Below are positions 60,183 through 60,596 of a DNA stretch of 64,000 nt, piece after piece; position 1 is the first letter of the stretch; each line of letters opens with the position of its first letter. The stretch spans positions 186,001 to 250,000 of the forward strand of contig JYIP02000003.1 of the NCBI GenBank assembly GCA_001051155.2, written 5' to 3'. Below the pieces are notes generated by a model. It made no database searches. It saw nothing but the letters and a program-made list of their open reading frames with translations, and was not told where the DNA came from. The DNA is from Chrysoporthe austroafricana (lineage: Eukaryota; Ascomycota; Sordariomycetes; Diaporthales; Cryphonectriaceae). Both the position numbers and the translations under genes were made by a program.

Positions 60183-60596
60183 TTACAGGACCGCATCCAG
60201 ATCGAAGCTTTCAGGAAGGGGGCTTTTGGGAATTAAGGTCTCCGCAGCGCAATACTCGGCTTCGGCCTTACGGCTCTCTTCCGCTGCCTTTTCAGCCTCT
60301 AGTCTTTCCAATTCCTTAAGGTTGGACAAATTATGGCGAAAAGCCCGAGCTATTCGCTCCCGCCATATTCGTTTCTGTTTCCGCAACCGTATCAACTTAT
60401 CTTCCAGACCCTTAATCTCATCTTCCAACTTTTGGAACTGGTTGGATGCGAAAGAAAGTTCCGCAGCATTAATCGGTTCCAAAATATTGCAGCTTGCCTG
60501 GTTATATTGAACGCACTTAAGATAATGAAACGAATCCTGCTTAGATACCGCGCAAATTTCTAAGCCTAAACGATTGCAATAAGAATAAGGACGCAT
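60183..60596 (-). CDS. intact antisense ORF of element B: Zn2Cys6-like cluster plus coiled coil (137 aa)
   Basis: Only fully open copy of the antisense frame. The start at 60596 lies 193 bp from the 3' LTR. N-terminus MRPYSYCNRLGLEIC; cluster positions Y4, C7, C15, Y25, C28 and C36 (C-V-Q-Y-N-Q-A-S-C). Central charged coiled coil F-Q-K-L-E-D-E-I-K-G-L-E-D-K-L-I-R-L and R-I-W-R-E-R-I-A-R-A, then LKELERLEAEKAAEESRKA; tail ETLIPKSPLPESFDLDAVL. The TAA stop falls where other copies read L-Q-Q-F-G, so the original was longer. The region is GC-richer than flanking pol. Two cluster positions are Tyr, so a metal site is probably broken even though the frame is open. Confidence 0.7.
   Translation of the reverse strand: MRPYSYCNRLGLEICAVSKQDSFHYLKCVQYNQASCNILEPINAAELSFASNQFQKLEDEIKGLEDKLIRLRKQKRIWRERIARAFRHNLSNLKELERLEAEKAAEESRKAEAEYCAAETLIPKSPLPESFDLDAVL

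Follow-up and report, generated by a model that had tools for sequence, protein, structure and literature searches.

The stretch analysed here (the window) is 64,000 nucleotides of the Chrysoporthe austroafricana genome, contig JYIP02000003.1 (C16:186001-250000 of the 48.15 Mb, 22-contig genome that we searched). It contains five copies (A to E) of a chromodomain Ty3/Gypsy retroelement, each with an open reading frame (ORF) antisense to pol. The interval 60183..60596 is the inner part of this antisense gene in copy D. The features of copy D, including its long terminal repeats (LTRs), are as follows.

53446..53964, plus strand: 5' LTR, used for the LTR comparison
57547..58974, plus strand: pol, with RVT_1, RNase H and integrase H2C2 domains (searched piecewise, with X at stops)
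59689..59865, plus strand: Tf2-1-like SH3 domain of integrase (28.0 bits, cut-off 30); the pol C-terminus comes after it
60093..60698, minus strand: full antisense gene of about 201 codons, putative start ATA at 60698, putative terminal stop TAG at 60095-60093
60252..60449, minus strand: predicted long-helix or coiled-coil part of the antisense gene (alignment columns 50-115), aligned to modelled relatives
60489..60587, minus strand: six-Cys cluster (columns 4-36), residues Y, C, C, Y, C, C
60699..60784, no strand assigned: leader of 86 bp between the putative start and the 3' LTR, with the polypurine tract GGAAAGGGG at its LTR end
60785..61295, plus strand: 3' LTR, with 439 identities, 72 mismatches and 8 gaps against the 5' LTR

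A profile search found exactly five stretches of the gene inside the window, all where an earlier note, made from the sequence by a model, had placed them. Their translations, with in-frame TAG and TAA codons, agree with that note. The genes of the other four copies, each with ATA as putative start, are:

16385..16990, plus strand: copy A, terminal TAG at 16988
19803..20399, plus strand: copy B, putative terminal TAG at 20397
32421..33044, minus strand: copy C, putative terminal TAG at 32423-32421
62370..62978, plus strand: copy E, putative terminal TAG at 62976

Searched against the genome, copy D gave at least 40 scored matches among 133 candidates as a DNA query, and a protein search gave at least 150 among 416. 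Among the best 150 of the 416 protein candidates, 149 span residue 5 or earlier to residue 130 or later in a single frame; the earlier note had described an unbroken frame in its five copies. Our copy sample came from a profile search of the window and the retrieved loci (overlapping sets of 8, 39, 30, 20 and 11) and comprised 86 unique stretches. Five partial stretches were excluded from the copy counts, and the 81 full-length copies were aligned over 145 columns.

The earlier note was right about the strand and place of the five ORFs, and its boundaries needed revision. Many homologues are longer by about 30 N-terminal residues, and the window copies match these from an ATA that precedes the Met taken as the start by 29-34 codons, making that Met internal. 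This ATA is present in all five window copies, probably in place of an ATG hit by repeat-induced point mutation (RIP); no window copy is therefore intact. The distance to the 3' LTR, measured in copy D alone, is 86 bp for the full ORF and 188 bp for the internal Met. At the other side, the end given for copy D at 60183 is an internal stop in a Gln column, and the putative common end is at 60093. This common end lies 22-31 codons beyond the ends first proposed in copies B-E and is identical to that of copy A. In the less-RIPped copies L084, L092, L093 and L097, the frame extends upstream into a basic stretch that opens with M/ISGRV or MSSKV, and it runs downstream to a stop after YSSG/YLSG.

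The pol C-terminus is convergent with the antisense gene and lies just downstream of it in 66 of the 69 copies with at least 400 nt available (the exceptions are L027, L085 and L088). All 69 were located via the antisense ORF, so elements lacking it would escape this count. The ends of the two frames, pol and antisense, share about 20 nt in L084. With the 3' LTR checked in copy D, the 66 copies have the position and strand of an accessory ORF of the aORF-3R type, antisense between pol and the 3' LTR.

Alignment scoring upheld the six positions said to be occupied only by Cys or Tyr. Columns 4, 7, 15, 25, 28 and 36 are Cys or Tyr in 81/81 full-length copies, are encoded exclusively by TGY or TAY, and are the sole columns with at least 95% Cys/Tyr. 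The next highest, column 6, reaches 81% with Tyr and zero Cys. The spacing is C-x2-C-x7-C-x9-C-x2-C-x7-C, with x6 in two copies and one additional residue in one. No copy retains all six Cys; five are retained in 8 copies, four in 12, three in 17, two in 34 and one in 10. Column 25, the fourth Cys, is Tyr in nine shown members of a less-RIPped group (L099-L102 and L104-L108) and in the related proteins P0004, P0006 and P0011, and may be a genuine substitution and not a product of RIP.

The 81 copies contain 340 in-frame stops (218 TAG, 117 TAA and 5 TGA), and three copies are stop-free across the 145 columns. The stops had been attributed to RIP at Gln- and Trp-like codons, and this description fits: 324/340 sit in columns with at least 20% CAA, CAG, TGG, CGA or CGG among readable codons (Gln/Trp/Arg-type columns). 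The window copies are dead, with RIP-type stops, lost starts and lost Cys.

RIP causes transitions only and no indels, and we therefore used purine/pyrimidine (RY) coding for the selection tests. On the tree of the 81 copies, RY steps at codon positions 1/2/3 numbered 137/82/254, a pattern matched by 0/10000 within-codon shuffles, and position 3 has the most steps in all four protein parts. The ratio of observed/expected nonsynonymous to synonymous single transversions over all pairs (omega_tv) was 0.244 in the antisense frame and 1.510, 2.110, 0.909, 0.448 and 3.454 in the other five; these ratios carry no P value, since pairs are non-independent, and the tree step count is the safer test. 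The earlier note had proposed a selection check, with values near 1 speaking against a gene; run as a transversion-based omega among the copies of this genome, it gave a value well away from that. We also considered selection on the pol-strand frame (offset 1), which had the second-lowest value. Since the antisense frame has the lower value, we read this 0.448 as probably reflecting variable positions that the two frames share. In the 64 copies with an ungapped pol C-terminus, omega_tv was 0.20 for the antisense gene and 0.31 for the pol C-terminus. Purifying selection acts on exactly this antisense frame, at least as strongly as on the pol C-terminus, and the ORF is almost certainly a real, selected protein gene. 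In the upstream N-terminal stretch, the counts by codon position were 46/41/57 with 69 copies; because this periodicity is weak, the stretch is supported mainly by homology.

Relatives extend well beyond this genome. A profile of an 11-sequence alignment (A2) retrieved 34 related proteins, and one of a 34-sequence alignment (A5) retrieved 145, of which 120 were listed. The earlier note had suggested a profile search, and many of the proteins found here keep the six Cys. Among the matches listed, organism names are all fungal where given, and most records are nameless. The named relatives include Pyricularia, Gaeumannomyces, Monosporascus, Cryphonectria, Diaporthe, Cytospora, Sordaria, Thyridium, Pyrenophora, Periconia, Cladosporium, Cryoendolithus, Penicillium and Aspergillus, which we take to be ascomycetes. 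The strict six-Cys pattern is present in 78/140 relatives; the remainder, as far as viewed, include fragments and Tyr variants. In a 33-member alignment, five Cys are invariant and the sixth is at least 90% conserved. The source record of one relative, P0081, is titled Zn(2)-C6 fungal-type. Of the 140, 38 passed a length and motif filter, and these have a basic N-terminus (35/38), an acidic tail (36/38) and a W-containing tail (36/38). Antisense placement was established in the copies of this genome, and the relatives are known as protein records alone. A single-sequence protein search gave 57 candidates and zero scored matches, and a search of viral contigs for the family gave no match. P0007, P0015, P0017 and P0036 have near-identical C-terminal tails and clearly different N-terminal halves, as if members recombine.

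The Zn(II)2Cys6 cluster (PF00172) has six invariant Cys spaced C-x2-C-x6-C-x5-12-C-x2-C-x6-8-C, and in classical clusters Cys 2 and Cys 3 are separated by a basic run. The earlier note had suggested a divergent relative of this cluster with a weak basic run, followed by a coiled coil. Spacing, relatives and predicted fold support such a divergent cluster; in most window-type copies, the first triplet has x7 where x6 is canonical. AlphaFold models of two relatives had mean predicted local distance difference test (pLDDT) values of 82.9 and 86.4 and predicted template modelling scores of 0.51 and 0.55. They predict a confident Cys domain (pLDDT mostly 95-97) and then long helices, at the place of the proposed coil. 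For one model, ten structural matches were listed; eight of these, at low Z, are GAL4-type domains. The structural matches of this kind include HAP1, PUT3, Pho7, LAC9 (1cld, 33/33 residues, root-mean-square deviation 1.9) and GAL4 (36 residues, 2.2). A comparison with viral structures gave nothing at E <= 0.001. A profile of the Cys domain searched against PDB had Zn2Cys6 proteins as 9/11 matches at E <= 10, three of them assigned as such on our presumption, with LEU3 best at E 0.12. The whole-protein profile gave 20 PDB matches, mostly haemagglutinin, at E >= 0.2, and Pfam and NCBIfam searches of window-type members gave weak, mostly coil-like matches.

Several observations qualify this identity. 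The comparison with Pfam Zn_clus that the earlier note had suggested gave weak matches: of the 140 relatives we scanned 35, and all fell below the cut-off (12/35 match at E <= 10, best 16.9 bits against 21). The basic run is not merely weak, as proposed, but missing from the family, and the first triplet resembles the second half of the canonical domain, not the first. The fourth Cys is retained as Cys in just 7/81 copies.

Likeness to host Zn_clus domains goes beyond the Cys. In a 27-member set it was reached by 0/200 column permutations, and with 61 members by 1/150 in native order and 0/150 with the halves swapped. The first triplet resembles the canonical second triplet (0/150 permutations in each set, 23/23 members by score). 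We considered a circular permutation of Zn2Cys6 as an explanation. The whole-domain test favoured it: a swapped-halves model beat the native one in 18/27 and 21/27 members, whereas 19/19 held-out real domains preferred native order. For all 27 members, the number of permutations (of 200) that reached this preference was 1 in the global and 0 in the local version. It was again 1 and 0 in the more distant group, and 43 and 13 in the group nearest the window; for 61 members it was 2/150. The idea fails half by half on the second triplet, whose score against the canonical first triplet was reached by 25, 28 and 24 of 150 permutations and is not significant. In the distant group, the second triplet is nearer the canonical second triplet (0/150). 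By a simpler score, 11/23 second triplets lean to the canonical first (the last Cys was misplaced in four members). The family is a divergent Zn2Cys6-like cluster, and a clean swap of halves is no more than suggested. A zinc-cluster-like fold is very probable. With the regulators GAL4, LAC9, LEU3, PUT3 and HAP1, the family shares compatible six-Cys spacing, a probably similar predicted fold, the coil that follows, and the basic and acidic ends common among its members. It differs from them in its sub-threshold Pfam score, absent basic run and unusual first triplet, and in lying antisense within a retroelement.

A copy outside the elements remains intact. The best genome match of a distant member, P0025, lies at C12:3390543-3391031, within a 220-codon open frame that keeps all six Cys.

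C12:3388800-3392800, about 1663-2322 within this segment, minus strand: L149, intact stand-alone relative; the 4 kb has GC 0.52

No Pfam match at E <= 0.01 was found in any frame of these 4 kb, and tblastn of pol pieces gave nothing notable (best E 0.028). A DNA search of the genome with L149 returned the gene itself, two short stretches (37 and 110 bp) and no second copy. Upstream of the gene lies an LTR-like piece (68-70% over 149-212 bp), in an orientation relative to the gene opposite to that in the element. The L149 protein is 47-54% identical to its best element copies and, across 116 residues, 59% identical to P0048 of Cytospora. L149 may have been exapted, or it may be an old remnant.

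Antisense genes in this position are known from other elements. Zhao et al. 2011 reportedly described brtn in Boty-like elements of Botrytis cinerea and Sclerotinia. In the passages cited, brtn is a gene of unknown function that lies antisense in a fungal chromodomain element, with pol on one side and the 3' LTR on the other (PMC7264820, PMC8365987, PMC4227169, PMC5987419). It shares position and strand with the present family; those descriptions do not mention a zinc cluster, and the likeness is by description, not by sequence. Plant antisense accessory ORFs (Grande gene23, RIRE2, Retand TRP28 and PvRetro13) also share position and strand, and nuclear or DNA-binding roles have been proposed in the sections cited (PMC7264820, PMC11963269). 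They encode different proteins (TRP28, SMC) in plant lineages, and the word 'zinc' has 0 occurrences in the main text of the Retand paper. HBZ of human T-cell leukaemia virus (HTLV) type 1 is a bZIP protein. HTLV has an antisense promoter inside its 3' LTR, and HBZ is treated as an antisense nuclear regulator in the relevant part of a 2020 review (PMC7264820). We draw the analogy of an antisense regulator alone; HTLV is a vertebrate retrovirus, and no sequence kinship is claimed. The portion of that review on such antisense ORFs describes no clear similarities for their proteins (PMC7264820). The earlier note had called an element with its own antisense regulator-like protein unusual. The arrangement itself is known from brtn and the plant elements; as far as the literature searched goes (PMC3248453 and PMC10799480 included), the zinc-cluster identity, the selection test, the spread and the stand-alone copy are new here.

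In our reading, the chromodomain elements carry an antisense gene of some 200 codons as a fixed component, opposite to gag-pol, tail-to-tail with pol and heading away from the 3' LTR. Its transcription would start from a promoter within or next to the 3' LTR, for which the copy D 3' LTR is a candidate seat. The protein would comprise a basic N-terminus, the six-Cys zinc cluster, two long helices that likely form a dimerising coiled coil, and an acidic tryptophan-bearing tail. Zinc binding, dimerisation and nuclear entry would be expected of such a plan; the protein would bind DNA as a dimer via the cluster and adjust transcription of its own element from the LTR. Because the tail is acidic, activation is a first guess for the direction of effect. 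The plan would be GAL4-like, and the place of the gene in the element that of HBZ in HTLV. As a whole, an antisense zinc-cluster protein regulating its own element is the explanation we favour as reasonably probable. That the protein is a DNA-binding regulator is slightly more likely than not, and action on its own LTR is a tentative proposal. The boldest version would be a widespread ascomycete retroelement lineage with its own antisense zinc-cluster regulator, a fungal HBZ counterpart setting LTR activity. It would have a rearranged Zn2Cys6 with a first triplet resembling the canonical second, and one copy or more would have escaped to persist as an intact single-copy gene in gene-rich DNA. 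That version is doubtful in its entirety.

The protein might instead be a zinc-binding coiled-coil accessory factor acting after transcription, helping the integration complex into the nucleus or to its target, or serving as a nucleic-acid chaperone. The missing basic run is consistent with such a role, as is the result that no CGG/CCG sites are conserved at 60% in the LTR and leader, and a review, in the part cited, weighs nuclear import and other accessory roles for antisense-ORF proteins (PMC7264820). The acidic tail and the predominance of GAL4-type domains among matches of the predicted fold speak for a regulator, and we consider the accessory role rather unlikely. It is improbable that the six Cys form another zinc or structural site with coincidental spacing: the sub-threshold Pfam scores and the non-significant second triplet would suit it, and the first-triplet permutations and the predicted fold, with its root-mean-square deviations from GAL4-type domains, speak against it. 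For plant elements, antisense transcripts have been considered as triggers of silencing (PMC7264820, in the part cited), and a Botrytis Gypsy element yields small RNAs (PMC8365987, likewise). That the transcript itself matters here, through double-stranded or small interfering RNA and silencing with the ORF as a by-product, is nonetheless very improbable, given that the amino-acid sequence is selected as strongly as that of pol and that many fungi have homologues. RIP without indels leaves frames of any kind standing, yet a chance frame or composition artefact of AT-rich RIPped DNA is ruled out for practical purposes by the RIP-immune RY step counts and omega_tv, with the relatives in other fungi and the intact copy in GC-rich DNA also against it.

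In plant and fungal elements, as in deltaretroviruses, genes on the antisense strand turn up repeatedly between pol and the 3' LTR; what they do in transposons is a long-standing question. The zinc-cluster plan, selection as strong as on pol and the many relatives of the antisense zinc-cluster gene open this question to ordinary tests. The family may also supply fungal genomes with lineage-specific regulators.

The base composition of the window is uneven. GC is 0.42-0.57 in the first 13 kb and 0.15-0.43 in the AT-rich DNA thereafter; TpA/ApT is 0.62-0.87 and 0.93-1.26 in the same parts, the latter in agreement with RIP. The isochore edge lies at 12001-14000, where GC switches sharply from about 0.47 to about 0.23, and 49001-53000 is extremely AT-rich (GC 0.15-0.19). 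Immediately outside the copy D 5' LTR, 53160-53329 contains repeat units at 17- or 34-bp intervals. The stretches 20862-22641 and 29925-31704 form a large inverted repeat (1780 nt, 76%), probably two oppositely oriented elements.
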